IMG/VR virus record: IMGVR_UViG_3300034375_008177
Span: 1 to 22,208 of that record
Reading direction: 5' to 3' (one strand)
Length of the DNA: 22,208 nucleotides
Source: a virus
Part shown: positions 3,445 through 22,208 of the stretch, piece by piece
How positions within the stretch are numbered: position 1 is the first letter of the stretch
Layout: the number at the start of each line of letters is the position of its first letter
Notes under the pieces: model-generated
Databases searched by the model: none
The model's input: the letters and a program-made list of their open reading frames with translations, nothing else
What the model was told of the DNA's origin: nothing
Translations under genes and position numbers: made by a program

Positions 3445-3942
3445 ATGAATTTTTTAAAGAAATTTTACACAGAGCAGAAGCTTATTTTTCATGTTGTTGT
3501 AACGGTTTTAGCAGGAGCTATTATCTACTTCACAGCAAGTTGGCATAACTTTCTATTCTGGTTTCCTGCGTTTATTTCACTATATGCTACGGCAGTTGGT
3601 GTAGTAGAGGCTTACAGTGTTTCTGTGAAGACATTAGACCCTTTAGGTCAAAAGATTAAAGGATATTTAGACGAGATTGACAAGTATATTGTTTTTCTGT
3701 TTACCATTCCTTTCATTGCTACTTTCTTGGATAAGACAAGCTTTCCGGATGTATATGTATACATACAGGAGAATTTCGAATCTATCTGGAAGAGTGGATT
3801 TCATGTATTTGCAGGATTGAAGGCTTTATGGTTCCTAGTGCGAGGGGGTGAGAATAACGCAGTAGCGGACACCTTGAGAGTTATTAAGGCAGATAAGTTA
3901 ACGGAGGATAGTATAGTTACATTTGCAACGAAGGTAAAGTGA
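3445..3942 (+). CDS. Holin-like membrane protein (putative)
   Basis: A 165-residue protein with hydrophobic segments near residues 16-32, 34-55, 80-96 and 118-133, compatible with three or four membrane passes, and charged ends. It overlaps the amidase gene by four bases, its TGA sharing bases with the amidase GTG. A multi-pass small membrane protein translationally coupled to an endolysin gene is the classic layout of a holin-endolysin pair. It is longer than many holins (about 70-150 aa) and no family motif was recognised, so the holin role comes from topology and neighbourhood. Confidence 0.6.
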   Translation: MNFLKKFYTEQKLIFHVVVTVLAGAIIYFTASWHNFLFWFPAFISLYATAVGVVEAYSVSVKTLDPLGQKIKGYLDEIDKYIVFLFTIPFIATFLDKTSFPDVYVYIQENFESIWKSGFHVFAGLKALWFLVRGGENNAVADTLRVIKADKLTEDSIVTFATKVK

Positions 3943-4584: not shown

Positions 4585-5442
4585 ATGGAAGAAATAAGAC
4601 TACCAAATTATGATGCAAAGTTAACCATTTTTGCAAAGGATGCTAAAGAGGTTTTCGATTGGACCTTTGATTTCTACGATATCAAAGGTATACACGAGAG
4701 AGGTTATTTTGGTGAAGGTGAGACTATTGCCATACTTGACACAGGGCTAAACGAAAAACATCCAGACCTTTTCGGCACAGTTATTCACGCTGAAGATATG
4801 CGAGGCAGCAATGATGTGACAGATAGGAACTACCACAGCACATGGATACACGGAAGACTCAGCGCGGTTCATAACGGCGTAGGTGTTCAAGGTATATGTC
4901 CAAAAGCTAAGATTATTATATTAAAAGTATTTAATGATAACGGTAGTGGCAATTCAGAATGGTTAGAAAAAGGAATAAGACGAGCGCGCGAATTAGGTGC
5001 TACACAAATCAATTTCTCAGGTGGTTTAGGTGTGAAGATACCATCCATCGAGGAGGCTATAAATGACTTTATTATTGATGGCGGCACTTTTTGGGCTGCA
5101 AACGGTAATGATGGGTTGAAAAATGACCTTGATTTCCCTTCTAACATACCTCAGACGGTCGCTGTTGGCTCGCATGATGAGAATGGTAGTATTAGTAACT
5201 TCTCGGATTTTGGCGCAATGTCGGACATCTATAGCGCTGGTGAGGATGTTCTTTCAACTTATGGTGATAAGGACTATGCCCTGTTAAGCGGAACTTCAAT
5301 GGCTACACCTACTGCATTAGGTGTTTTTGCAACATTGAGAATACCATTAGAAAAGAAATTAGGATTTAAAATTACACCTGCAAACTTGCATTTGTTCGCT
5401 CAAGATATAAAATCAATCAATGTCAAAGAAAGAAGATTTTAA
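4585..5442 (+). CDS. Subtilisin-like serine protease (peptidase S8)
   Basis: A 285-residue compact S8-family protease domain with the full catalytic set: Asp52 in AILDTGLN, His84 in YHSTWIHG (the family's usual HGTHVAG, here altered), oxyanion Asn173 in AANGNDG and nucleophile Ser238 in GTSMATP. There is no signal peptide and no clear propeptide, so it probably acts in the phage-infected cytoplasm or as part of the particle. The ATG start follows an A-rich leader after a terminator. It lies between the lysis genes and the tape measure gene. A role in maturing virion proteins or degrading host proteins is possible but not shown. The 3' end overlaps the next small gene by 23 nt. Confidence 0.88.
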   Translation: MEEIRLPNYDAKLTIFAKDAKEVFDWTFDFYDIKGIHERGYFGEGETIAILDTGLNEKHPDLFGTVIHAEDMRGSNDVTDRNYHSTWIHGRLSAVHNGVGVQGICPKAKIIILKVFNDNGSGNSEWLEKGIRRARELGATQINFSGGLGVKIPSIEEAINDFIIDGGTFWAANGNDGLKNDLDFPSNIPQTVAVGSHDENGSISNFSDFGAMSDIYSAGEDVLSTYGDKDYALLSGTSMATPTALGVFATLRIPLEKKLGFKITPANLHLFAQDIKSINVKERRF

Positions 5443-12443: not shown

Positions 12444-12491
12444 ATAACGTTGAATGTAAACCACGTTTTAATGTGGTTTAAATAGTGTTAT
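12444..12491 (+). repeat. attC-like palindrome, site 1
   Basis: The outer arms ATAAC (12444-12448) and GTTAT (12487-12491) are complementary. The inner arms TAAACCAC (12457-12464) and GTGGTTTA (12473-12480) are perfectly complementary, and the loop is GTTTTAAT. The spacers between arms are unequal. This R''-L''-loop-L'-R' plan with terminal AAC/GTT is that of integron attC sites. There is no T run, so it is not a terminator. Confidence 0.6.
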
Positions 12492-13083
12492 AGGTATTTA
12501 ATTATTTGATTTATGAGAAAATGTATAAAATGTGGGGAAGTAAAGCCATTATCGGAGTTTTGTAAAACAGGTTTTAAAAGTGATGGTAGCCAAAGATATA
12601 AAAGCCAATGTAAAGTCTGCTATAATTCTAATTGGAAATATAGACTTATGAGTACATTGACAAGCAGGGAAAGTAAAAGAGTTATGTCAGATGGTCGTGA
12701 AAGAAAATGTTTGAGTAGAGATAAAGGTATAAACGGTGCGTTTTTGGAAAGTTTGAAAAAAGAGCAAAAAGGAATGTGTTATTGGTTAAATATACCTATA
12801 GATTTTACAATGAAAGATAAATTACGAAAACCAAGTTTAGATAGGCTAGATAATAGTAAAGGTTACGAAATAGGGAACGTTGTTTTGACTACGGTTTTTG
12901 CTAATACAGGTAGGAGAGATGCTACAATAAAAGAGATGAAAGGTTTTGTAGATGATTACCTATAACGGAAAAGCGTATGAGCAGTGGCGAATTACCCGCA
13001 GAAACTTAATTAAAAGAACGAAAGTATGAATAACGAAATAACTATCATAGATGCACTAAAACCGCCATTGCTTATACGCAGTG
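12488..13083 (+). mobile_element. Putative integron-like cassette with HNH-like gene
   Basis: The first bases at the left boundary, GTTATAGGTA (12487-12496), are perfectly complementary (10/10) to TACCTATAAC (12957-12966), which opens the palindrome closing the segment. In integrons this arises because a circular cassette holds both halves of its own attC site. The segment carries one gene that begins 25 nt after the boundary and whose stop codon lies inside the attC-like core. Confidence 0.6.
12513..12965 (+). CDS. HNH-like (His-Me finger) nuclease with N-terminal zinc finger
   Basis: A 150-residue protein. The N-terminus holds two CxxC pairs (CIKC at 4-7, CKVC near 33-36) forming a likely zinc finger, as in many phage HNH proteins. 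The C-terminal half has the pattern PSLDRLDNSKGYEIGNV followed by an Asn (VFANTGR), typical of a subset of HNH nucleases with the SLDRID-KGY-N signature. The classical first His of HNH is not clear, and the usual CxxTG motif is altered (CYWLNIPIDF), so activity is uncertain. It probably nicks or cuts DNA. It sits alone in a cassette-like segment; its TAA overlaps the R''-like core of the closing palindrome. Confidence 0.7.
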   Translation: MRKCIKCGEVKPLSEFCKTGFKSDGSQRYKSQCKVCYNSNWKYRLMSTLTSRESKRVMSDGRERKCLSRDKGINGAFLESLKKEQKGMCYWLNIPIDFTMKDKLRKPSLDRLDNSKGYEIGNVVLTTVFANTGRRDATIKEMKGFVDDYL

Positions 13084-13092
13084 TTAGTGGCA
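12957..13092 (+). repeat. attC-like palindrome, site 1b (long type)
   Basis: AAC at 12964-12966 and GTT at 13083-13085 bound an inverted repeat. The 17-nt arm 12973-12989 (GCGTATGAGCAGTGGCG) pairs with 13063-13079 (CGCCATTGCTTATACGC) by 15 Watson-Crick and two G-T pairs. The centre of 73 nt is unpaired in this simple reading. The total of about 120 nt is within the known length range of attC sites. It contains the apparent start codon of the downstream methyltransferase. Confidence 0.6.
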
Positions 13093-13694
13093 GTGCTTTC
13101 TACTTACTTATTAATGGCGATTCTCAAAGTGTGATGGCAAAGAACGATTTAGATTTTGATGCTATAATCACAGACCCACCTTACGGATTGAAAAAAGAAC
13201 TTAAAAGGGGTTGGCACGGAAACAACGGGAAAACAAAATTCCACGCAGAAAACAGTTGGGATGAAAAACTAAATTCGTTTGTTGAAAATTTGACAACACA
13301 AAAAGACCAAATAATAATGTGGGGTGGAAACTTTTATAATTTACCACCAACAGATAGTTGGATGATTTGGGATAAACTGCAAGACAATAGAGGTAGTGAT
13401 GCGGAAATGGCCTGGAGTAAATTAAAAAAGCGTGGATGCAGAGTTTTTAGAATGAGTAGAATTGATGCTTATTTCAACAAACGAATTTTTCCAAAAGAAC
13501 ACCCAACTGAAAAACCAATACAACTAATGGAATTTTGTGTGAATAAGACCACAGGTGTAGTGATAGACCCTTTTATGGGAGTAGGTAGCACAGGGTTGGC
13601 TTGTGTAAATCTAAATCGTTCTTTTATAGGGATTGAGAAGGATGAAAATTATTACGACATTGCTGTTCGGAGGATTTCACAGCATTGCCACTAA
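13026..13694 (+). CDS. DNA methyltransferase (N6-adenine or N4-cytosine type)
   Basis: A 222-residue amino-methyltransferase. The catalytic DPPY (50-53) precedes the target region, and the SAM-binding motif DPFMGVGSTG (181-190) lies near the C-terminus with HPTEKP (159-164) before it. This order (IV before I) is that of the beta-type N6_N4 class that methylates adenine N6 or cytosine N4. No restriction partner is adjacent unless the HNH-like gene serves. The first 19 codons lie in the upstream attC-like palindrome, and no ATG/GTG/TTG exists in frame inside its own cassette before the conserved LLINGDS region, so translation seems to start in the attC loop. The TAA stop lies inside the R''-like core of site 2. 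Confidence 0.85.
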   Translation: MNNEITIIDALKPPLLIRSVSGSAFYLLINGDSQSVMAKNDLDFDAIITDPPYGLKKELKRGWHGNNGKTKFHAENSWDEKLNSFVENLTTQKDQIIMWGGNFYNLPPTDSWMIWDKLQDNRGSDAEMAWSKLKKRGCRVFRMSRIDAYFNKRIFPKEHPTEKPIQLMEFCVNKTTGVVIDPFMGVGSTGLACVNLNRSFIGIEKDENYYDIAVRRISQHCH

Positions 13695-13734
13695 CGCCCA
13701 TATAAGAACCGTTTTAATGGTTTCTTATATATTG
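13084..13734 (+). mobile_element. Putative integron-like cassette with methyltransferase
   Basis: The left boundary GTTAGTGGCA (13083-13092) is perfectly complementary to TGCCACTAAC (13686-13695), which opens the closing palindrome site 2. The segment is one gene long, with almost no non-coding DNA, as is usual for cassettes. Confidence 0.6.
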
Positions 13735-13737
13735 TTA
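13692..13737 (+). repeat. attC-like palindrome, site 2 (40 nt shared with site 5)
   Basis: The outer arms are TAAC/GTTA. The inner arm ATATAAGAACC (13700-13710) pairs with GGTTTCTTATAT (13719-13730) with one bulged T, around loop GTTTTAAT. Positions 13693-13732 are identical to 21683-21722. The bulged base is reminiscent of the extrahelical bases that guide strand choice in attC sites. Confidence 0.6.
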
Positions 13738-13754
13738 ATAATAACATCATAAAT

Positions 13755-13859
13755 ATGAGAGAATGCAATAAATGTAACCGGCTTTTTGTTGAATCTATAT
13801 TCTGCCTATGGTGTGGAAGCTCTGATGTGGAAGAAGTTTCTGATGAGCTGCCTTTTTGA
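13755..13859 (+). CDS. 34-aa zinc-ribbon microprotein with SSB-like C-terminal tail
   Basis: ATG 13755 opens a 34-residue frame with two CxxC pairs, CNKC (4-7) and CLWC (17-20), a compact zinc-ribbon pattern. An acidic tail follows, ending DVEEVSDELPF. The acidic stretch ending in LPF at the C-terminus matches the tail of bacterial SSB, which docks many replication and repair proteins; the SSB encoded here (15720) ends NDLPF. The tail suggests binding to SSB partners or competition with SSB. It begins 17 nt after attC-like site 2. Very small, but the double CxxC and the tail argue for a real gene. Confidence 0.6.
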   Translation: MRECNKCNRLFVESIFCLWCGSSDVEEVSDELPF

Positions 13860-13904
13860 TAAATTAAAAAAAAATAAACCATAAACAAAAATCCCTTTTT
13901 TAAC

Positions 13905-14204
13905 ATGATTGGAATTAAAGAAAAACAAATAAGGCTCCGAGATACAAACCCGGAAGGATTCAAGGAGTTAGCAACAAATCTAAAATCTAAACTAGGATTG
14001 ATTGTCGATGAAGATGCTATTAAAAATGAAGTCTATTACAGGCAGCTTTATAAGGAAAGGTATTGCGAATGGCTTGATCATCAGTTTAGGTTGAGTAATG
14101 AACAGAGGCGTTTTGCGAAGTCATTACCAAGACATAAGGTTGATGCTTATGTTGCTTCTTGCGTGAAAAGAAGGGAAGATTATTTTAATAAATTCACAAA
14201 ATAA
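13905..14204 (+). CDS. Unknown small basic helical protein (99 aa)
   Basis: A 99-residue protein with many Lys, Arg and Glu. The sequence is predicted helical, with conserved-looking aromatic stretches (VYYRQLYKERYCEWLDHQF). There is no signal, no metal motif and no catalytic motif. It is placed just before the leader of the recombination genes. I do not recognise it. It could be a DNA-binding accessory, by charge and location only. Confidence 0.5.
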   Translation: MIGIKEKQIRLRDTNPEGFKELATNLKSKLGLIVDEDAIKNEVYYRQLYKERYCEWLDHQFRLSNEQRRFAKSLPRHKVDAYVASCVKRREDYFNKFTK

Positions 14205-14238
14205 TATTCAAAAAATGTTTTTATTATTCAAAAACTTA

Positions 14239-14246
14239 TATATTTG
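14239..14246 (+). promoter_or_regulatory. -7 promoter element for the recombination operon
   Basis: TATATTTG matches TAnnTTTG. The -33 region is T-rich (ATGTTTTTATT) without an exact TTG. It lies 113 nt before the annealing-protein-like gene, with a structured leader in between. Confidence 0.5.
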
Positions 14247-14252
14247 TACTCG

Positions 14253-14341
14253 AGCGATTTTGCTCATTCAACTTAAAGAAGTTGATAGTCTTTCTATTTT
14301 CGGTATAGGCGATTCAAAAAGTTGATCCGCCTATATTTTTT
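14253..14341 (+). ncRNA. Structured leader RNA with three hairpins
   Basis: Three successive hairpins: GAGC/GCTC (14252-14255 with 14262-14265), TCAACTT/AAGTTGA (14268-14274 with 14279-14285, loop AAAG), and the terminator TATAGGCG/CGCCTATA (14304-14311 with 14328-14335). The terminator loop repeats AAGTTGA (14319-14325), so the 5' TCAACTT could pair with either copy. Boundaries are estimates. Confidence 0.45.
14304..14341 (+). terminator. Intrinsic terminator before the recombination genes
   Basis: A perfect 8-bp stem TATAGGCG/CGCCTATA with a 16-nt loop is followed by six T (14336-14341). The next ATG is 18 nt downstream. Confidence 0.75.
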
Positions 14342-14359
14342 AAAAACAAAAAACAAACT

Positions 14360-14896
14360 ATGAAATTAAAAACCATTTCTATTAAAGGTAACGAGTATGT
14401 TACTGTAAATGAACGTGTAAAAGCGTTCAGGTCAAACCATCCGGAGCATTCGCTCATTACGGAGTTGATAAATGCTGACGCTGAATCATGTCTTTTTAAA
14501 GCGTCAATACTAGACAAAACTGGCCGAGTCATAGCCACAGGCTATGCTCATGAATTAAAGGCGTCTTCTTATATAAATAAGACATCTTATATTGAGAATT
14601 GTGAGACGTCAGCGATTGGACGTGCTTTAGGCTCTTTCGGCATCGGCATAGACTCCTCATACGCTACAGCTGATGAGGTTATCAATGCTATTAATCAGCA
14701 ACAGAATGGATTAAAGGCTACAGAAAGGACTGGTACTATAGATTCAAAAATACTACAGAAATACAATGAGGAAATTAATGAACTTACATCACTAGAGGAG
14801 CTTAAAGATTATTACAATATCTTACCTGCCGAATATCAAAGGCACGTACAGATAAAGTCTATCTTCTCATCTAGAAAAGCTGAAATCAATGGATAA
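14360..14896 (+). CDS. Erf/annealing-protein-like ssDNA recombination protein
   Basis: A 178-residue protein. The core has VNERVKAFRSNHPEHSLITEL, then ILDKTGRVIATGYAHEL, then YIENCETSAIGRALGSFGIG with DSSYATADEV. The ENCETSAIGRAL-GxG-ADEV pattern recurs in phage single-strand-binding and annealing proteins of the ERF/Rad52-like type. The last 50 residues are a charged helical tail. It overlaps the exonuclease gene by eight nt, which supports a beta/exo-type pair for single-strand annealing recombination. The family assignment rests on the motif and the partner. Confidence 0.65.
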   Translation: MKLKTISIKGNEYVTVNERVKAFRSNHPEHSLITELINADAESCLFKASILDKTGRVIATGYAHELKASSYINKTSYIENCETSAIGRALGSFGIGIDSSYATADEVINAINQQQNGLKATERTGTIDSKILQKYNEEINELTSLEELKDYYNILPAEYQRHVQIKSIFSSRKAEING

Positions 14897-15638
14897 GCTT
14901 GGAGGAATAGGTGCTAGTGAGATAGGTAAGCTTTTCACTAGAGATGGAATGGCTTCAAAAGGCGTGAAAACCTTGTGCGTCGAGAAGTGTGAAGAGATTC
15001 TGAATGGCGAAAAACCTAGAATCAACACGGTTGCAATGCTGCATGGCCTCTTTAACGAGGAGGAGGCTTATAACTCTGTTGTAAAGGTGTTTTATCCATC
15101 GGCACGATACAGGTCTTCAGAGTCTGTTTGGATAGATAGCAATTGTTGGGCTACGCCTGACATAACAGACGAGGAGAATAGTCTTGTGATTGATGTAAAG
15201 TGTCCATATACGGTGTCTAGCTTTTACAAGAATTTAAATAATCTGCCGAGCAGTTATATGTATCAAGTACAAATGCAGATGCTCGCTATGGGTTATGATA
15301 ATGGAATGATATGCCTATATTTAACATCGAATAGAGTAGATGGTTTTGGCAATAAGATTGAGTATGAAATTGATATAAATGATAGGCATTCTTTTATTAC
15401 AATCCTAAAGGACGAGGCAATACAGAAAGAGATACCGCACCGGGTTGATGTGTTTGTAGGTATGAGGGATACATTAATGGTTGATTTGCTAAATGCCATT
15501 GAAGTAAACGACTCTGAATTTTTCTATATACACAAAGAGAAGAAAATAACGAGGCTAAAAGACAAATCCAATCCATTCACGTGGGGTGGACAAATAGTAA
15601 GAAACGGTGGCATACATTATGTCGCAGAAGATTCATAG
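14889..15638 (+). CDS. YqaJ/lambda-exonuclease-like 5'-3' exonuclease
   Basis: A 249-residue nuclease of the PD-(D/E)xK type. Motifs: GIGASEIGKL (6-15), LHGLFNEEEAY with His52 and Glu57/58, CWATPDI with Asp91, SLVIDVKCP with Asp102 and Lys104, and YQVQMQMLAMG (125-135). The order fits lambda exonuclease and YqaJ recombinases, with Asp in place of the usual Glu of ExK. It would resect double-strand ends to single strands for the annealing protein. The start overlaps the upstream gene, and a terminator follows before SSB. Confidence 0.85.
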   Translation: MDKLGGIGASEIGKLFTRDGMASKGVKTLCVEKCEEILNGEKPRINTVAMLHGLFNEEEAYNSVVKVFYPSARYRSSESVWIDSNCWATPDITDEENSLVIDVKCPYTVSSFYKNLNNLPSSYMYQVQMQMLAMGYDNGMICLYLTSNRVDGFGNKIEYEIDINDRHSFITILKDEAIQKEIPHRVDVFVGMRDTLMVDLLNAIEVNDSEFFYIHKEKKITRLKDKSNPFTWGGQIVRNGGIHYVAEDS

Positions 15639-15663
15639 TTTTTTTGTTTTTAATACAGATTTT

Positions 15664-15697
15664 CCTGCGGTGGGTACCCAACTCATCGCAGGTTTTT
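15664..15697 (+). terminator. Intrinsic terminator between exonuclease and SSB genes
   Basis: CCTGCG (15664-15669) pairs with CGCAGG (15687-15692), extended inward by GTG with CAT, loop containing GGGTACCC, then five T. It sits 23 nt before the SSB ATG. No clear -7 element is seen between the exonuclease and SSB, so SSB would rely on readthrough or an unrecognised promoter. Confidence 0.7.
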
Positions 15698-15719
15698 AAA
15701 CGAAATTTAAATTTTAAGT

Positions 15720-16118
15720 ATGATAAATAAAGTTAATTTATTAGGTAGAATAGGCACAGACCCAGATTCTAGGCAATTCGAAGGAAATGAAGTTACATCA
15801 ATCAATGTGGCTACTTCCAAATCTTATAAAAAAGGAGATGAATGGGTCGAGCAGACCGAGTGGCATAATGTCTCATGTTGGGGTTCGATGTCGGATAAGG
15901 CTAAATCTTTTAGGAAGGGAGATTTAGTGTGGGTTGAGGGGGAGTTGAATACTCGAAAATACGAGAAAGAAGGTATTACCCATTACAGAACAGGGATTAA
16001 GGCTTCGTATGTTAGGAAAATACCTACAGGACAAGGGGGTCAGTTAGCAGGAGGTTTGCAAGGCAATGCGTTTGCCCCGGTTGAAAGTTCTAATAATCAA
16101 AATGACTTGCCTTTTTGA
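15720..16118 (+). CDS. ssb: Single-stranded DNA-binding protein
   Basis: A 132-residue SSB. The OB-fold signature is evident: MINKVNLLGRIGTDPDSR at the start, SINVATSKSYKKGDEWVEQTEWHNVSCWG (28-55), then GDLVWVEGELNTRKYEKEGITHY (67-89). A short Gly/Gln/Asn linker precedes the acidic tip NDLPF, the peptide that binds partner proteins. It protects single strands in replication and recombination. It is shorter than E. coli SSB (178 aa), mainly in the linker. The TGA overlaps the ATG of the next gene. Confidence 0.93.
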   Translation: MINKVNLLGRIGTDPDSRQFEGNEVTSINVATSKSYKKGDEWVEQTEWHNVSCWGSMSDKAKSFRKGDLVWVEGELNTRKYEKEGITHYRTGIKASYVRKIPTGQGGQLAGGLQGNAFAPVESSNNQNDLPF

Positions 16119-16357
16119 TGGATAATTACTCAGATATATACTTTGATGAAGATGGTCAAATGCGTTTTAATTCTGAGGATAGTAAGGCACGTTTTACAGT
16201 TTTATGTGGGCAGACTATCATCAACTTTATAAATAGTCGGCAGGCTAAAATGGATATTATAGAGCTTCAAAATGGGCAAGGTGATTTGGTCGTTATCGAG
16301 TGTAGAATAAAAGAATGGACTAATCCGATTAATATTAATGAAAATCAAAATAATTAA
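16118..16357 (+). CDS. Small acidic protein (79 aa), unknown
   Basis: ATG 16118 overlaps the SSB stop (TGATG) and is preferred to the TTG three bases earlier. It is an acidic alpha/beta protein (MDNYSDIYFDEDGQMRF... LQNGQGDLVVIECRIKEW) without known motifs. Coupling to SSB suggests a part in replication or recombination. The following lipoprotein gene starts two nt after its stop. Confidence 0.55.
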   Translation: MDNYSDIYFDEDGQMRFNSEDSKARFTVLCGQTIINFINSRQAKMDIIELQNGQGDLVVIECRIKEWTNPININENQNN

Positions 16358-16359
16358 AG

Positions 16360-16551
16360 ATGAAAAAATCAATGTTATTTTTTTTAGTAATAATTCTTCT
16401 GAGTAGCTGTGCTTCTAGTAGATATGCACCAGTTAAAAATAAGCAATTTAAGATTGTAAATTGCGGAATTGCCAAATATGAGCGATACTCAAAGAAACAG
16501 AAGAAAAAGAACGCTCGGAAGATGAGAAAATGCAAAACTTTCCGAAAATGA
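16360..16551 (+). CDS. Small basic lipoprotein (63 aa)
   Basis: The N-terminus MKKSMLFFLVIILLSSC is a lipoprotein signal with lipobox LSSC, Cys17 being the lipidated residue. The mature part is about 47 residues and very basic (YSKKQKKKNARKMRKC). Small phage lipoproteins can be outer-membrane spanins or superinfection-exclusion factors. It is not next to the endolysin, but a second wall hydrolase (17056) lies 0.5 kb downstream. Function unknown. Confidence 0.6.
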   Translation: MKKSMLFFLVIILLSSCASSRYAPVKNKQFKIVNCGIAKYERYSKKQKKKNARKMRKCKTFRK

Positions 16552-16638
16552 GAAATCACGAGATATGGCGATGGTGTGATGTGTGCTTTGTCTGGATAGA
16601 TATAAGGTCCGAATCCTGTCAATGTGAAAAATAATGAT

Positions 16639-16899
16639 ATGAAAAACAAAGAAGGTAGAAGTTCAAAATACAAAGGGATTACTTGGCATGAAGGGGCTTC
16701 TAAATGGCTCTCACGCATAAAAATAAAAGGCAAAAGTTTATATTTAGGCTTGTTCGATGATGAACTGGATGCCTATGCGATGTATAATGGGATGGTCGAT
16801 GTGGTGAAAAAGAATCCGGGCATTTCATACAAGAAAGCCAAGAGGTTGAGAGATGTTGTATCGCTTTTCATGTTTAATGAAATAATAGTAAAAAAGTAG
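16639..16899 (+). CDS. Stand-alone AP2-like DNA-binding domain protein
   Basis: An 86-residue protein from ATG 16639; a GTG at 16624 would add five residues. The segment SSKYKGITWHEGASKWLSRI with KIKGKSLYLGLFDDELDAYAMYN is the three-strand sheet plus helix of an AP2/ERF DNA-binding domain: YKGI-W, KW-RI, LG-FD, A-AYN. In phages this domain is usually fused to an HNH nuclease, which is absent here. It may be a remnant of a homing endonuclease or a stand-alone DNA-binding protein. The C-terminal helix is basic. Confidence 0.75.
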   Translation: MKNKEGRSSKYKGITWHEGASKWLSRIKIKGKSLYLGLFDDELDAYAMYNGMVDVVKKNPGISYKKAKRLRDVVSLFMFNEIIVKK

Positions 16900-16930
16900 A
16901 ATAATTTTTTTTAATCGTTTCTAGCGGTTA

Positions 16931-16938
16931 TATCTTTA
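16931..16938 (+). promoter_or_regulatory. Weak -7-like element before leader terminator
   Basis: TATCTTTA differs from TAnnTTTG at the last base. It stands before the hairpin at 16951-16984 much as 8652-8659 stands before 8700-8736. Confidence 0.3.
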
Positions 16939-16950
16939 AATTGGTTATCA

Positions 16951-16988
16951 GGCAGGTCTCGGCTAAAAGTAGTTTTGCCCTGCCTTTT
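16951..16988 (+). terminator. Intrinsic terminator upstream of the SleB-like gene
   Basis: GGCAGG (16951-16956) pairs with CCTGCC (16979-16984), with an inner stem of GC/GC and AAAA/TTTT around GTAG, then TTTT. Confidence 0.8.
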
Positions 16989-16989
16989 G

Positions 16990-17003
16990 TTAAACTGGTT
17001 TAA
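16990..17003. promoter_or_regulatory. 14-bp palindromic operator-like site, copy 2
   Basis: TTAAAC-TG-GTTTAA, followed by TTAGATT, closely matches copy 1 at 8761-8774 with its following CTAGATT. It ends 22 nt before a -7-like TATTTTAG (17026-17033) and 52 nt before the ATG, the same geometry as copy 1. Confidence 0.5.
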
Positions 17004-17055
17004 TTAGATTGTAAATAATACTAACTATTTTAGTGCCTAATCTAAAATTAAAACT

Positions 17056-17547
17056 ATGAAAAATGTATTCATTATATTACAGATATTGGCATTCTTTTAC
17101 ATATCCTACAAGATATGCCAATACGAAAAACCTATCAAAGAAGAGCTTCTCATCACCGAAGCTCCTAAACCGGAAGTTAATTATGAGCTAGAAATTCTAG
17201 CTAAGATAGTGGCAGCAGAAGCATTAGGCGAATCATTCCAAGGTAAATTAGCTGTCGCCTCTGTTGTTCTTAATAGAGTAGAAGCTAAGGAATTCCCTAA
17301 CACCATCCAAGAGGTGATATACCAAAAGAATCAATTCCATGGCGTTAGCTCACCCCTATTTAATCGGCCGAATGAAGATTGCTATATTGCCGCTAAAAGA
17401 GCTTTAGAAGGCGCTATAATTACGGAAGCATTATTTTATGCTAATACCGACACGGCTACGAATAGAGGGTGGATAAAACATATCAAAAAACTATATCCAA
17501 ACCAAGAAAAAATAGGAAATCACACATTTTATAATAAAAGCATTTAA
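17056..17547 (+). CDS. Membrane-anchored SleB/CwlJ-type cell wall hydrolase
   Basis: A 163-residue protein. The N-terminal hydrophobic segment (about 3-19) is a membrane anchor or signal-anchor. From residue 46 a Hydrolase_2 (SleB) domain follows: ILAKIVAAEALGES with likely catalytic Glu55, GKLAVASVVLNRV, FPNTIQEVIYQKNQF and ALFYANTDTAT. SleB proteins are lytic enzymes acting on peptidoglycan glycan strands. This is the second wall hydrolase here, besides the amidase. Its upstream region has its own terminator, palindrome and -7-like element, so it seems to be expressed apart from the late lysis genes. It could help DNA entry, tail assembly or lysis. Confidence 0.8.
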   Translation: MKNVFIILQILAFFYISYKICQYEKPIKEELLITEAPKPEVNYELEILAKIVAAEALGESFQGKLAVASVVLNRVEAKEFPNTIQEVIYQKNQFHGVSSPLFNRPNEDCYIAAKRALEGAIITEALFYANTDTATNRGWIKHIKKLYPNQEKIGNHTFYNKSI

Positions 17548-18024
17548 ATGGATTCTAATTTTTTGCGAGTAATCATCAATTCAGATGCTCAATATAATGA
17601 GCTGCAAAGCTATTTGGCATCTGAAGGCTTCACAGAAATGAACTGGGTAAAAGAGGTTTCTGAGCCTGTAAGGCATAAACCCGGTATAGGTATAGTGGGC
17701 ATATCTAGGGGCGAAAAAACTGTCCATCAGATTAGCAATAAAATAATTGATGTATTGCGACGTTATCAAACTAGCATATATCCTGCGTATTGCACATACC
17801 ATAACAATGCAGACCTGTTTGAATTTTTGGAAATACATAAAACCACCAAGAGGGTCTACAAGAAAAAGCGTATACTAGGAGCTGATGGAACTATATATGA
17901 TTCAGCTATGGATTACTTATTGGTCAATCAGATTAGCCCTAGAAACATCCATGTGCTTTACAATGCTTTACACCATAAGAAAAAATATAAAGGAAAAGAA
18001 ATAAGTTATTATGAGCAATCTTGA
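17548..18024 (+). CDS. Unknown protein (158 aa)
   Basis: It follows the SleB-like gene with no gap. A mixed alpha/beta protein, basic in its second half (KTTKRVYKKKRILGADG), without signal, membrane segment or known catalytic motif. The His/Tyr-rich centre (YPAYCTYHNNADLFEFLEIH) may bind metal, but this is speculative. It overlaps the next gene by 14 nt. Confidence 0.5.
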   Translation: MDSNFLRVIINSDAQYNELQSYLASEGFTEMNWVKEVSEPVRHKPGIGIVGISRGEKTVHQISNKIIDVLRRYQTSIYPAYCTYHNNADLFEFLEIHKTTKRVYKKKRILGADGTIYDSAMDYLLVNQISPRNIHVLYNALHHKKKYKGKEISYYEQS

Positions 18025-18193
18025 ATTAGAAAAAAAGATTTATAATTTAGCATACAGGAGAGGCGTCTGTCTTTCTATTTTAAAATCAATTAAGATGAGA
18101 TTAGATGATGAAAGTCTGACTTCTGAATTAGATGATGTTATCTCAGAACTTGATAAGCCTGTAGAGGAAAGTAAGTATAAGCTACCTGTATAA
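18011..18193 (+). CDS. Small helical protein (60 aa), unknown
   Basis: ATG 18011 overlaps the upstream gene by 14 nt. The residues form one or two helices with Leu/Glu/Lys heptads (NLELEKKIYNLAYRRG, RLDDESLTSELDDVISELD). No family recognised. The TAA ends seven nt before attC-like site 3. Confidence 0.45.
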   Translation: MSNLELEKKIYNLAYRRGVCLSILKSIKMRLDDESLTSELDDVISELDKPVEESKYKLPV

Positions 18194-18200
18194 AAGGCGG

Positions 18201-18250
18201 CTAACGGAGGAGTGTATGGTGCGCTTTAATGGTTTTTACCACGTGTTGTG
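18201..18250 (+). repeat. Degenerate attC-like palindrome, site 3
   Basis: AAC (18203-18205) and GTT (18245-18247) flank a weak inverted repeat in which GTGTA (18212-18216) pairs with TACCAC (18237-18242) if one base is bulged. It retains CTTTAATG in the centre, like the loop of the other sites. Support is weaker than for the other sites, but its right core GTTGTGTGC pairs with the left core of site 4. Confidence 0.35.
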
Positions 18251-18312
18251 TGCTGTATGGCGACTTATACAACGAATGATGATTAAATGTACTAACGTAA
18301 AAATATTTAAAA

Positions 18313-19470
18313 ATGTGTGATGGCAAAAATGGTTTTGAAAAAAACAAATTAATAAATGAAATTAAGGACTATCTGAGTAAGTTAGATTTTGCAGATAAAA
18401 TTAATAGTATAAATGAAATACGAGAGGCTATACATAATGAGTCTCCTTTTAAAAATGAACCTGTTGATTTTGTAAAATGGGTAGTAAATAAAAATGTTGT
18501 TGCAAATGATTACAACCCTAACAAAGTCGCACCACCTGAAATGGAACTTTTAGAAGTCTCAATAATGAATGACGGATATACTCAACCTATTGTTACGTGG
18601 GATAATCCAGAAAAAGAAAAAATCGAAGTGATTGATGGGTTTCATAGGAATAGAGTAGGCAAAGAGTCTAAGGTTGTAAATCAAAGAGTGATGGGATACT
18701 TGCCAATTGTAGATATTCGAAAAGAACAGTCTGGGAAAAATGACAGAATTGCCTCAACCATAAGGCACAACAGAGCAAGAGGAAAACATCAAGTTGATGC
18801 TATGAGTGAAATAGTTATTGAATTAAAAAACAGAAATTGGACCAACAAACGCATAGCAAAACAGCTAGGAATGGATGAAGAAGAAGTATTAAGACTTTGT
18901 CAAGTTTCAGGGTTAGAACATTTATTTTCTGATAACGACTTCAGTAATGCATGGGAAAGTTCTGATAGCATTTGTGACTATGAACAAATATCTGATGATG
19001 TTACGGAAGATGAGTTAAACCTATACAGAATACCAAATGAAGGCGATACTAACAGAATATTTCATACTTACGATAAATGGGAATGTCACAAGGCAGGTTT
19101 TTATAAAAGCAAGAAAGAAGGAATGACAAAAGAAGAATGCTATTTAGAATATAAACGAATATTGTCAGACGGAGAACTATTTTCAAGCATTCTTGATAGG
19201 GTTATAATGGAATGGAAATATTCATGTGAACACTATTTAACAAATAAAAGTATGAATAGAATAGCATGGCTTGGTAAAGCAGCTGTATGTTATGAAACTG
19301 GAATACCCTCATCATATTCAGGAGCATTGTTTGAATTAGATGAGAATACTCAAAATGAATGTAATAATATAGCTTTAGAATATTTAAACAAGTGGTTAAG
19401 GAATAATAATATTGAAGAAATAGATATAAATGAAGCTGCTATAATTGGCAGACAAGTAGAACTTTATTAA
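18313..19470 (+). CDS. IbrB-like ParB/Srx-domain protein
   Basis: A 385-residue protein. The ParB/sulfiredoxin-like fold is at about 45-150: NPNKVAPPEMELLEVSIMNDGYTQPIVTW, then IEVIDGFHRNRVGKE (the ParB GEHR-like box, here DGFHR). RHNRARGKHQVDAMSEIV and a helix-turn-helix (WTNKRIAKQLGMDEEEVLRL) follow. The C-terminal about 170 residues are family-specific. ParB-like proteins of this kind occur directly before PAPS-reductase-like genes as the IbrB/IbrA pair on phages and mobile elements. Their biochemical role is unsettled; regulatory and DNA-acting roles have been proposed. The next gene starts one base after its stop. Confidence 0.75.
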   Translation: MCDGKNGFEKNKLINEIKDYLSKLDFADKINSINEIREAIHNESPFKNEPVDFVKWVVNKNVVANDYNPNKVAPPEMELLEVSIMNDGYTQPIVTWDNPEKEKIEVIDGFHRNRVGKESKVVNQRVMGYLPIVDIRKEQSGKNDRIASTIRHNRARGKHQVDAMSEIVIELKNRNWTNKRIAKQLGMDEEEVLRLCQVSGLEHLFSDNDFSNAWESSDSICDYEQISDDVTEDELNLYRIPNEGDTNRIFHTYDKWECHKAGFYKSKKEGMTKEECYLEYKRILSDGELFSSILDRVIMEWKYSCEHYLTNKSMNRIAWLGKAAVCYETGIPSSYSGALFELDENTQNECNNIALEYLNKWLRNNNIEEIDINEAAIIGRQVELY

Positions 19471-19471
19471 T

Positions 19472-20692
19472 ATGGCAACAAAGAAATATTTAGACATAAA
19501 CGTACTCCAGGCAACTAAAGAAAGGATAAGTAAAGTGTTTGATTCATTTGAAAAATATTACATAAGTTTTTCTGGTGGTAAAGATAGCACTGTAATGACT
19601 CATTTGGTTATGAATGAAGCTATTAAAAGGGGGAAAAAGGTAGGATTATTAATTATAGACTTAGAGGCTCAATACAAGCACACAATAGACCACATAAGAG
19701 AAATAGTTGAAGAATATAAAGAACATATAGATTTACATTGGTTTTGTGGAGAATTGTTATTGAGAAATGCAGTTAGTGACTTTCAGCCTAAATGGATATG
19801 TTGGGATGAAAATAACAAAAATATTTGGGTAAGAGAAAAGCCAAACGAATCATCAAATTTAGAACAATATGATTTTTATATTCCAAAAATGGAATTTGAG
19901 GAATTTATGGTTTTGTTCGGTAAGTGGTATGCAAATAATAAATTAACAGCTGGATTTATAGGGATAAGGGCTGATGAAAGTTTACATAGATATAGAGCTA
20001 TTGTTTCAGAGAAAAAAAACTTAACATTCAATAATTACAAATGGACTACAAAATTGTCGAATATGTTATACAATGTCTACCCGATATATGATTGGAGAAC
20101 TGAGGATATATGGGTATTCCATTCTAAAAACAAAAATTTATCTCATAATAAGATATATGACATGATGACAATGGCTGGAGTTAAATTAAGTAATCAAAGA
20201 TTATGTCAACCGTTCGGTGACGACCAAAAAAAAGGACTTTGGCTTTATCATATTTTAGAAAATGAAACATGGTACAAGCTTCTTAACAGGGTTAGTGGTG
20301 TTAACAGTGGGGCATTATACATAAAGGAAAAAGGAAATATTAACGGATATAATGATGTAACTAAGCCAGTAAATCATACTTGGGAATCATATACTAACTA
20401 TTTACTAAAGTCATTGCCTATAAAAATGCAAAAGCATTATAAGGAAAGGTTTGTTAAATTTATAGTAGGCTGGAAAAAAAGAGGATATGATAAAATACCA
20501 GATATTGCACCTCATGATTTAGAGGTTAAATGCTGGGCTCCAAGTTGGAAAAGAATGGCAAGATGTATATTGAGAAATGACTATTATTGTAAAGGACTTG
20601 GACAAACACAGCCAAAATCAGAGGCATATGAAAAATATAAGCAAATCAAAGAAAAACGGAGAATAGAAAATGAAATTAAACCTAACGGCTAA
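19472..20692 (+). CDS. IbrA-like phosphoadenosine phosphosulfate reductase-family protein
   Basis: A 406-residue protein of the adenine-nucleotide alpha-hydrolase (PP-loop ATP-pyrophosphatase) fold. The PP-loop SGGKDS is at 34-39, followed by THLVMNEAIKRGKKVGLLIIDLEAQY. The central GFIGIRADESLHRYRAI and the segment YNVYPIYDWRTEDIWVF are characteristic of PAPS reductases. The longer C-terminal part (about 270-406) resembles the extension of IbrA proteins (DUF3440 type). PAPS reductases make sulfite; related PP-loop enzymes (DndC, SspD) act in DNA phosphorothioation. Pairing with a ParB-like partner makes nucleic-acid chemistry or regulation as likely as sulfur assimilation. Tightly coupled to the upstream gene. 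Confidence 0.8.
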   Translation: MATKKYLDINVLQATKERISKVFDSFEKYYISFSGGKDSTVMTHLVMNEAIKRGKKVGLLIIDLEAQYKHTIDHIREIVEEYKEHIDLHWFCGELLLRNAVSDFQPKWICWDENNKNIWVREKPNESSNLEQYDFYIPKMEFEEFMVLFGKWYANNKLTAGFIGIRADESLHRYRAIVSEKKNLTFNNYKWTTKLSNMLYNVYPIYDWRTEDIWVFHSKNKNLSHNKIYDMMTMAGVKLSNQRLCQPFGDDQKKGLWLYHILENETWYKLLNRVSGVNSGALYIKEKGNINGYNDVTKPVNHTWESYTNYLLKSLPIKMQKHYKERFVKFIVGWKKRGYDKIPDIAPHDLEVKCWAPSWKRMARCILRNDYYCKGLGQTQPKSEAYEKYKQIKEKRRIENEIKPNG

Positions 20693-20735
20693 GGCTTTGC
20701 AATAGGTTTTCAAATAAGTAAACCACATAAATGTA

Positions 20736-20819
20736 ATGGATGAGAAAGTCGCAATGCTTGAGAGAGCCAAGCAAGAAGCCATGAAGTGTTTAACTACACT
20801 AATATACATAAACCAATAA
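20736..20819 (+). CDS. Possible 27-aa peptide before site 4
   Basis: ATG 20736 opens a short frame beginning MDEKVAMLERAKQEAMKC and ending INQ, an amphipathic helix. It fills the gap between the IbrA-like gene and attC-like site 4, but it is too short to be sure. Confidence 0.25.
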   Translation: MDEKVAMLERAKQEAMKCLTTLIYINQ

Positions 20820-20823
20820 TTGC

Positions 20824-20879
20824 ATACAACGTTGAGTATAAACGGTCGTTTTAATGCCGTTTATACATTGTTGTGCGTA
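20824..20879 (+). repeat. attC-like palindrome, site 4
   Basis: The outer arms ACAAC (20826-20830) and GTTGT (20870-20874) and the inner arms TATAAACGG (20837-20845) and CCGTTTATA (20857-20865) are perfect complements. The loop GTTTTAAT is closed by C-G, with one bulged T. The left spacer AACGTTGA is shared with site 1. Confidence 0.65.
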
Positions 20880-21724
20880 GTACGGATTTAATAGACGAAA
20901 TATGATTGATTTACGAAATACTGATTGCCTTGATTTGCTAAAAAGCATTGACGATGGTAGTGTAGATTTAATTCTGCAAGACCCGCCATATAATACAACG
21001 CAATGTGATTGGGAATATGATATTGATTTACCTGTTTTATGGCAAGAATGGGAACGAGTTTTAAAGCCCGATGGTGTAATACTTATTTTTAGTGATGAGC
21101 CGTTTACGAGCCGTTTAATTATGTCAAGGCTTGGGTTTTTTAAATATAGAATAACTTGGGATAAGATGCAAGGAAGTAATTTTCTTAATGCTCACAAAAT
21201 GCCATTAAAACAAACAGAAGATATTGTGATGTTTAGTAGGGTGAAAAACGGTGAATATACTTATAACCCTATATTAAAACCCAAGCCGAAACAAAACATA
21301 AGACCAATGGGAAACCCAAAGGATAAAAAGAAAAGCACTTACGGTGAGCATAAAGGCGAGTTCGCAGATGGTTATGACAATACTAAAAGTTACCCAACAA
21401 ACTTAGTTAAGTTTAGTGGAAAGGCTGATGAATGCAACCCACTAAACAGATGGCACCCAACACAAAAACCTGTAGGGCTTTTAAACGAGTTAATAATAAC
21501 ATTTAGTAATGAAAACGACTTAGTATTTGATGGATATTCAGGAAGTGGTAGTACAGCCATTTCTTGCCATAAAACGAAACGCAGATTTATTGGCGCAGAA
21601 TTAAATGAAGAATATTATAAAAAAGCAATTAGAAGAATAAAAGACGAAACATCTCAATTAACGATGTTTTAGTATTACGCACAACGCCCATATAAGAACC
21701 GTTTTAATGGTTTCTTATATATCG
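20871..21724 (+). mobile_element. Putative integron-like cassette with second methyltransferase
   Basis: The left boundary GTTGTGCGTA (20870-20879) is perfectly complementary to TACGCACAAC (21676-21685), which opens site 5. The single gene starts 31 nt from the boundary and ends a few bases before the closing palindrome. This is the clearest cassette in the window. Confidence 0.7.
20902..21672 (+). CDS. DNA methyltransferase (N6-adenine or N4-cytosine type), second
   Basis: A 256-residue amino-methyltransferase beginning MIDLRNTDCLDLLKSI. Catalytic DPPY is at 27-30. The target region includes RITWDKMQGSNFLNAHKMPLKQTEDIVMF (about 83-111), a pattern of adenine/cytosine-N4 methylases. HPTQKP (185-190) precedes the SAM-binding motif DGYSGSGST (210-218), where the usual DPF is DGY. 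The beta-type order is the same as in the enzyme at 13026, but the two differ in length and target region, so they probably modify different sites. No cognate restriction gene is adjacent. Likely role: protecting phage DNA from host restriction. Confidence 0.88.
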   Translation: MIDLRNTDCLDLLKSIDDGSVDLILQDPPYNTTQCDWEYDIDLPVLWQEWERVLKPDGVILIFSDEPFTSRLIMSRLGFFKYRITWDKMQGSNFLNAHKMPLKQTEDIVMFSRVKNGEYTYNPILKPKPKQNIRPMGNPKDKKKSTYGEHKGEFADGYDNTKSYPTNLVKFSGKADECNPLNRWHPTQKPVGLLNELIITFSNENDLVFDGYSGSGSTAISCHKTKRRFIGAELNEEYYKKAIRRIKDETSQLTMF

Positions 21725-21727
21725 TTA
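21680..21727 (+). repeat. attC-like palindrome, site 5 (40 nt identical to site 2)
   Basis: The inner arm ATATAAGAACC (21690-21700) pairs with GGTTTCTTATAT (21709-21720) around GTTTTAAT, with core AAC at 21683-21685 and GTTA at 21724-21727. The right core contains the stop codon of the minus-strand gene. Confidence 0.65.
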
Positions 21728-22208
21728 TCTTTTCTTCTTACTCTTCTTCTCTTGTTTCTTTTGCGCCTTAATTATCTTTTGTGCCTTCGGAATCATACTA
21801 AAAAAAGTTGGGTAATTCATTTGCATTAAATCCATCCTGCTGTATGGCAAATGTGTAGTAAGGAATAGCATTAAATCTTCGTAATCCTTATCTATCCTCT
21901 TGATATTGTCAATTATCTTTTCCTTGTACTTGCCATTCTCTTCTACTAGCTCAAGCGTAAACTCATATGGATACCTTGACCTGTTCTTTTGTTTTCCTTT
22001 CTTCTTGCCCGACCTTAAGTATGGCCCTATATCTTTGTAGAACGTTTCAATACTTCGCGGGCATATAAAAAAAAAGACTCCATATCCATATCAGTCTTCC
22101 AGTCGTTTATCTTCTTAGCTTGATGTGTAAGGTCGATAATAGTTGCATCCTCATTATCTGTGACGATAAACAAGGCACAAAACTCTAAAAGCAACTCATG
22201 ACTGGTTG
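21725..22208 (-). CDS. Tail assembly chaperone-like protein, -1 frameshift product (partial)
   Basis: This minus-strand gene is cut by the right edge. The 0-frame product is joined to the -1 frame at the T9 run (+ strand A9, 22067-22075). The -1 frame then runs about 115 codons from FFICPRSIETFYKDIG to a C-terminus rich in Lys. It includes LVEENGKYKEKIIDNIKRID and DLMLFLTTHLPYSRMDLMQMN, reminiscent of the C-terminal part of gpGT-like tail chaperones. This frame has no ATG, GTG or TTG start near the T run and has a stop just upstream of it, so it needs a frameshift. A one-base homopolymer error would give the same picture. The function is inferred from layout and character; no homology search was done. 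Confidence 0.5.
22027..22208 (-). CDS. Tail assembly chaperone-like protein, 0-frame product (partial)
   Basis: The 0 frame enters from the right edge. It reads HELLLEFCALFIVTDNEDAT, then KKINDWKTDMDMESFFLYAREVLK and stops at a TAG (complement of 22027-22029), 13 codons after the slippery run. The pattern of an acidic region, then DW and a hydrophobic FF-x-A helix near the C-terminus is like gpG-type chaperones, which are the short products of such genes. The start codon is outside the window. Confidence 0.5.
   Translation of the reverse strand, partial: TSHELLLEFCALFIVTDNEDATIIDLTHQAKKINDWKTDMDMESFFLYAREVLKRSTKI
22066..22072 (-). promoter_or_regulatory. Slippery heptamer U UUU UUA (putative -1 frameshift site)
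   Basis: On the minus strand, codons TCT TTT TTT TTA contain T TTT TTA in the correct phase for a -1 slip, and T TTT TTT overlaps it. The second frame begins exactly here. Confidence 0.5.

Follow-up and report, generated by a model that had tools for sequence, protein, structure and literature searches.

The closest described systems are the phage integron components treated by Qi et al. 2023 (PMC9892861), where, in the sections consulted, IntegronFinder was used to recover integrons or their components in 21 phages, with 17 clusters of attC sites lacking an integrase (CALINs), methyltransferase cassettes were reported, and five of six tested phage attC sites recombined with IntI1. According to the relevant part of PMC9668308, an integrase call by IntegronFinder requires the IntI-specific profile, and the I2 helix is regarded, in the corresponding part of PMC7790495, as an innovation enabling integrases to recombine single-stranded attC sites. 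A literature search, with most subscription papers and preprints outside its coverage, recovered Qi et al. 2023 as the sole work with phage integrons as its subject, and no description of the integrase clade, gene inversion or array turnover in phage Freya considered below. Here we analyze IMG/VR record IMGVR_UViG_3300034375_008177, a 22,208-nt sequence from a marine tailed phage that was taken in its entirety (the window), and two clusters of gene cassettes within it. The window phage is very likely an integrase-less member of a phage-borne, integron-like system whose integrases lack the I2 helix.

Each cluster holds two cassettes, one cluster coding for an HNH nuclease and a methyltransferase, and the other for an IbrB/IbrA-like pair and a further methyltransferase. 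Their features are as follows (fold z, single-stranded DNA folding relative to shuffles of the same site):

12446..12489, - strand: terminal attC of cluster 1; pattern and model match; fold z -1.85
12448..12965: cassette A, gene on the + strand and inverted relative to attC; 10/10 end pairing; putative AA/C cut (slash marking the cut) placed from homology breaks
12513..12965, + strand: HNH/endonuclease VII-like nuclease, 150 aa; PHROG 1035, E 3.5e-19; no Pfam match
12964..13085, - strand: long-loop attC separating cassette A from cassette B; folds with a 17-bp stem, z -2.43; 10/10 end pairing on both sides
12966..13694: cassette B; 10/10 end pairing
13026..13694, + strand: N6/N4 DNA methyltransferase, 222 aa; PF01555, E 6.3e-23
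13693..13736, - strand: proposed docking (attI-like) site of cluster 1; model match; fold z -2.13; first 38 nt equal to the site at 21683; AACGCCC start resembling the one preceding the integrase of phage Leef (by eye)
18203..18247, - strand: terminal attC of cluster 2, degenerate; its end pairing is that of cassette C; fold z +0.65
18205..20829: cassette C; end pairing 8/9 plus a wobble
18313..19470, + strand: ParB-like protein (IbrB-like), 385 aa; PHROG 2159, E 3e-66
19472..20692, + strand: PAPS-reductase/DUF3440 protein (IbrA-like), 406 aa; PF11922, E 2.2e-31; some phage records name relatives IbrA
20828..20872, - strand: attC between cassettes C and D; model score 69.5 bits; fold z -2.96
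20830..21684: cassette D; 10/10 end pairing
20902..21672, + strand: N6/N4 DNA methyltransferase, 256 aa; PF01555, E 3.4e-34
21683..21726, - strand: proposed docking (attI-like) site of cluster 2; found, along with the right flank, at 99% in the relative L011, whose cassettes are different; fold z -2.82

The six palindromes reported in an earlier note on this sequence (at 12444, 12957, 13692, 18201, 20824 and 21680) are present, as are the four pairings of cassette ends that it had described. Ends pair exactly over 10 nt in three of the four cassettes (12487-12496 with 12957-12966, 13083-13092 with 13686-13695, and 20870-20879 with 21676-21685), and at eight of nine positions plus one wobble in the fourth (18245-18253 with 20822-20830). 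The sites thus display the AAC...GTT (R''/R') boxes, paired arms, extrahelical base and pairing ends of attC; five of the six beat the mean of their own shuffles in folding by 1.85-2.96 standard deviations, one folding poorly. The loop of the 12957 site exceeds 70 nt, and GTTTTAAT is absent from this site. Seven exact 10-nt GTT...AAC pairs occur between 12401 and 21800, of which three coincide with the sites; shuffles gave 0.69 such pairs on average and 5 at most, none of 300 reaching seven. A site pattern generalised from the four best window sites has four matches in the window and none in 100 shuffles, a count to be read in light of its derivation from these very sites; the site scores come from a home-made model whose training set includes the 12446..12489 site. 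An Rfam scan of the window returned no attC match and nothing else of relevance.

The earlier note's claim of integron-like cassettes on a phage is borne out by comparison with a related phage, as it had itself called for. One relative, L011, matches the window at 88% over the left flank (window 16879-18186) and at 99% over the final site and adjoining right flank (window 21665-22206), and between these flanks carries other cassettes, coding for a 728-aa helicase/methylase-like protein (named from reading the sequence, with no search) and a 102-aa protein. One pair of cassette ends in L011 is exact over 8 nt (GTTCGATG at 1372, CATCGAAC at 3601), while the second involves wobbles (3691, 3955). 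It is proposed that the sites at 13693 and 21683, which are nearly identical, would remain with the phage as docking sites, a role which fits them because both are alike and L011 has one of them.

The site pattern recurs in at least 119 stretches of viral contigs and at least 116 of prokaryotic genomes; the genome matches listed are mostly from marine Bacteroidota, the exceptions coming from bins with the names Marinimicrobia, Verrucomicrobia, Kapaibacterium and Cloacimonadota. At a distance of 100-2500 nt downstream, 47/89 phage and 45/83 genome sites have an exact 9-nt partner, as against 1/89 and 3/83 in shuffled controls and 2/84 and 2/94 for the phage and genome sets when the partner was sought upstream. 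This search replaced a pairing test on consecutive sites (8-9 of 9 matches in 25/73 adjacent versus 9/132 non-adjacent pairs), which was noisy because long-loop sites had been missed.

With regard to the crossover, the earlier note had placed it at G/TT of the + strand and read the sites in the corresponding orientation; the homology breaks reverse this. Of 66 comparisons between different viral contigs, 42 place the start of the common unit at the AAC edge and six close to the GTT edge. Left-shared viral units end at AAC in three of four cases, and the five right-shared units at the genome loci all begin at AAC. A bulged base falls on the right arm, as expected for the reversed reading, in 15 versus 2 of the 82 phage cores and in 22 versus 1 of the 96 genome cores, the other cores having no bulge or an ambiguous one, and it is the right-hand end of the array that holds the integrase gene (nearby host cases, 9/9 by eye). 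Most likely, attC is read on the - strand, with the recombination point at AA/C of the + strand (i.e. G/TT of the - strand) and the site body moving with the gene to its right. As breaks fall mostly at AA/C, the genes would be inverted relative to attC, and the cassettes take the limits listed above.

This inversion sets the phages apart from the bacterial genomes. Among exactly delimited cassettes the genes run against the attC direction, rather than along it as expected of an integron, in 49 of 51 from phages and 3 of 54 from bacterial genomes. Consistently, the nearest open reading frame (ORF) lies with the pattern in phages (left 69 versus 9, right 78 versus 4; 113 sites, some with no ORF there) and opposite to it in genomes (left 93 versus 14, right 104 versus 3; 117 sites). 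At the phage integrase loci, 104 of 108 chain cassettes are on the same strand as the integrase and four on the opposite one, as counted in 23 of the 28 loci with chains of three or more (without L316, L325, L333, L373 and L352, the last a near-copy of L348, and without four links of L311, L319 and L320). Genes pointing against attC would join the phage's own transcription units rather than depend on an integron promoter.

Other viral contigs carry such arrays beside an integrase. A PF00589 protein is encoded in 10 of 50 attC-bearing viral records, and within ~2 kb of attC in four of the ten (G046, G063 as a partial match, G074 and G090). Among the best 80 of at least 569 viral relatives of the phage integrase, 21 loci have attC hits at E values up to 0.5; all 42 of these hits share the strand of the integrase, and 41 lie upstream of it. 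Chains of at least three cassettes occur in 28 of 82 loci versus 2 of 246 shuffles and chains of at least four in 17 of 82 versus none of 246, the longest having 13 units (L355); shuffles are the sole control for these counts (the reverse-strand count being symmetrical), and chains were accepted anywhere, irrespective of upstream position. In 15 of 23 hand-picked loci (L359, L358 and L368 from chains of two, L348 by eye) the last cassette ends 37-59 nt before the integrase start, and 13 of these 15 candidate attI sites are within two mismatches of AACTAYTATATRTA; in the remaining eight the chain ends further from the integrase. A tree of 90 rows places 61 of 70 viral integrases, including 19 of 21 adjacent to attC, on one side of a branch (99/100), although the bootstrap had not settled. 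At L300 (1962-2339) an S1-like ORF, recognized from reading the sequence, overlaps the phage integrase ORF by a single base, its first base being the final one of the latter.

Comparable integrases accompany the sites in host genomes. Among 35 integrase hits above 205 bits, seven lie within 5 kb (expected 0.34) and nine within 10 kb (expected 0.68) of the attC sites listed, whereas none of 69 full-length Xer-like proteins of the same genomes lies within 10 kb (expected 1.21). This count omits hits below ~137 bits, about eight last attC rows, and the fragments G005 C2, G024 C47, G026 C3:3760 and G030 C5; the G005 and G030 fragments are within ~2 kb of attC. Chromosomal arrays of the same attC family near integrases devoid of the IntI-specific region are seen in marine Bacteroidota and other genomes (L269, L279-L287), with the integrase 3' end towards the array in 8 of 9 cases within 10 kb (by eye). 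A region of Flavivirga jejuensis (L288) has a row of several short integrase C-terminal fragments within ~20 kb of attC sites.

The associated integrases lack the additional domain specific to IntI. No protein in the 38 attC-bearing host genomes passes the TIGR02249 integron-integrase cut-off, the best matches being split (~1-185 and 235-315). Two bacterial integrases align to VchIntIA (2a3v) at residues 9-212 and 245-318, and 13-173 and 248-318, with nothing between, and between the same conserved blocks the phage integrase has 48 and the Freya integrase 44 residues fewer than VchIntIA. The missing stretch is taken to be the one that holds the I2 helix, in line with parts of PMC7790495 and PMC9668308. 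A predicted structure of the phage integrase (pTM 0.62) has 5hxy as its top structural match (Z 22.4) and VchIntIA 2a3v at Z 19.3, matches which do not bear on the I2 region.

These observations bear on a further explanation, an unlikely one, that the phage acquired ordinary bacterial integron cassettes, i.e. a phage CALIN of the kind treated by Qi et al. 2023, mobilised by a canonical IntI of the host. Such an origin would accord with the occurrence of this attC family across many genomes of marine Bacteroidota and with phage CALINs bearing methyltransferases already being described (PMC9892861, in the sections consulted). However, it is weakened by the opposite gene orientation of phage and genome cassettes, by which the former look like a separate pool, and by the lack, among the attC-bearing host genomes, of any protein above the TIGR02249 cut-off.

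Natural variation in array content is seen in the cultured Polaribacter phage Freya, a more distant carrier of such an integrase. Relatives of the phage integrase (~37-40% identity) occur in 28 Polaribacter and Cellulophaga phage records, out of 32 hits. Seven Freya isolates were compared (Freya_1, 2, 5, 6, 8, 9 and 10; excluding Freya_3, _4 and _7). Over a 43,513-base backbone, mismatches to Freya_1 number zero in Freya_5, 8, 9 and 10, one in Freya_6 and four in Freya_2, and relative to Freya_10 the array has a single deletion each in Freya_1 (4942 nt), Freya_2 (4100), Freya_5 (3198), Freya_8 (902) and Freya_9 (307). The joints have AAC in common in four cases and CAAC in one. Freya_6 corresponds to Freya_5 with 472 nt more at its integrase end, a segment absent from Freya_10. 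These differences are what would be left by integron excision, plus insertion at attI. Crossover at G/TT in the R box and exact cassette gain and loss are both seen by comparison alone, the latter in this more distant phage. As both its integrase and its sites are distant, Freya supports the mechanism and not the window's own family. In Polaribacter phages Danklef_1 and _5 (L397, L398), whose integrase regions are identical over 7.5 kb, what adjoins the array is an integrase fragment with an annotated CDS of 132 bases; a cassette common to Freya and Danklef (99.6%) was rejected on its own as a sign of recent transfer, the nearby backbone being 98.8% identical. Ingeline_1 yielded no clear cassette chain. 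In PMC8776804, Bartlau et al. took the integrase as indicating a temperate life; the words "integron" and "cassette" have no uses in its main text, as far as consulted.

The Freya joints also speak to the possibility that segments are swapped by a non-integron enzyme, such as a phage HNH nuclease, or by recombination at short repeats. An HNH gene does lie within the window and another adjoins the Freya integrase, but only 3-4 nt are common at the Freya joints and the arrays sit at the attI-like end of integrase genes, making this very improbable. Equally implausible is a view of the palindromes as terminators or some other kind of repeat, with homologous recombination or assembly error behind the variation: tailed phages are generally mosaic and intergenic palindromes often end transcripts, but exact end pairing far exceeds the controls and five Freya isolates with near-identical backbones have single simple deletions joined at AAC.

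A number of observations weigh against the preferred interpretation of the window phage as an integrase-less member of a phage-borne system. No tyrosine recombinase (PF00589) and no resolvase was found in the three records of the window's phage group, though these contigs may be incomplete, and the enzyme would act in trans. Other cassettes were found in a single close relative, whose left flank matches at just 88%, and older homologous recombination may have operated there. The site at 18201 folds no better than its shuffles (z +0.65). The 66 break comparisons are not independent, and alike site bodies could stretch right-shared matches, with a left-shared control of four cases; the few left-shared breaks at AAC argue against such stretching. 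None of three left-shared breaks in genomes fits either edge. In L334 the genes are the other way round, and 59 of the 80 phage integrase loci have no attC hit. The Freya integrase, 37% identical to the phage one, falls beside and not inside the 61-row clade (SH-aLRT 88, long branches), and the site model of the window's family does not score the Freya sites (best E 0.39) or the sites of Ingeline and Leef (no hit, or one at E 0.1).

On balance, the finding of the earlier note is real, more extensive than it described, and reversed in orientation. Its likening of the clusters to a CALIN on a phage holds in that no integrase was found in the window phage, but the term fits that contig only, as other phages have arrays beside an integrase. 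Given that no integrase was found in cis in the window phage and that the associated integrases lack the IntI-specific domain, the system is to be seen as an integron-like variant and not a canonical integron. In the mechanism envisaged, each array would start at a resident docking site (13693 or 21683) followed by two cassettes along the - strand, with each cassette comprising a gene or gene pair and one attC. Cassettes may enter the window phage by recombination between attC and docking site, catalyzed by an integrase supplied in trans, potentially by a co-infecting phage or by the host's own integron using the same attC family. More broadly, phages probably own a class of integrons with I2-less integrases, their own attI and cassette genes running against attC, which appears active in nature (Freya), widespread, and a shared store of DNA-modification genes.

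Pfam searches on 52 phage cassette ORFs, five from the window, recovered N6/N4 methylase (11), MT-A70 (4), C5 methylase (3), Dam (1), D12 (1) and Mom (1) domains, families which may overlap. The cargo, mainly DNA methyltransferases, probably shields phage DNA from host restriction. As for the surrounding genome, the window is the entire IMG/VR record; a 48,247-base viral contig contains its bases 1-22206 at 100% identity and a second viral contig matches 9115-22206 at 99.95%, while a nucleotide search against phage records gave no match. The phage codes for a tape measure protein, a primase/helicase and a protease; within the structural gene region, 4585-5442 encodes a protease-family protein (PHROG 3677, E 9e-48). 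A small protein at 16624-16899 has a weak AP2-domain match (E 0.003, below cut-off) and is possibly a relic of a homing endonuclease.

If true, such a system would make the origin of integrons testable and give phages a means of swapping anti-restriction genes, and widespread attC arrays with I2-less integrases would evade integron-finding tools. A phage integron class would further imply that attC-type cassette recombination is possible without I2, which could be the ancestral condition or a solution reached independently. In comparison with known systems, the locus resembles integrons in its attC-like hairpins, pairing cassette ends, G/TT breaks and small mobile units of mostly one gene and, in relatives, in having the integrase at the attI end of the array; it differs in that the associated integrases lack the IntI-specific insertion, the phage cassette genes are inverted relative to attC, and no integrase was found in the window phage. 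XerA/XerC-type recombinases (NF040815) are the best NCBIfam match for all six bacterial integrases tested, and 5hxy is the top structural row for the phage integrase model, but the associated integrases adjoin cassette arrays whereas the full-length Xer-like proteins of the same genomes do not. Polaribacter phage P12002L, from the set of Qi et al., has three good matches to the site model, all on the - strand among - strand genes, which is the phage-type orientation. Thus cassette sites in phages were already known, and attC sites and methyltransferase cassettes are common to both studies, whereas the integrase clade and gene inversion are not reported in the consulted sections of Qi et al. 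2023 (PMC9892861).

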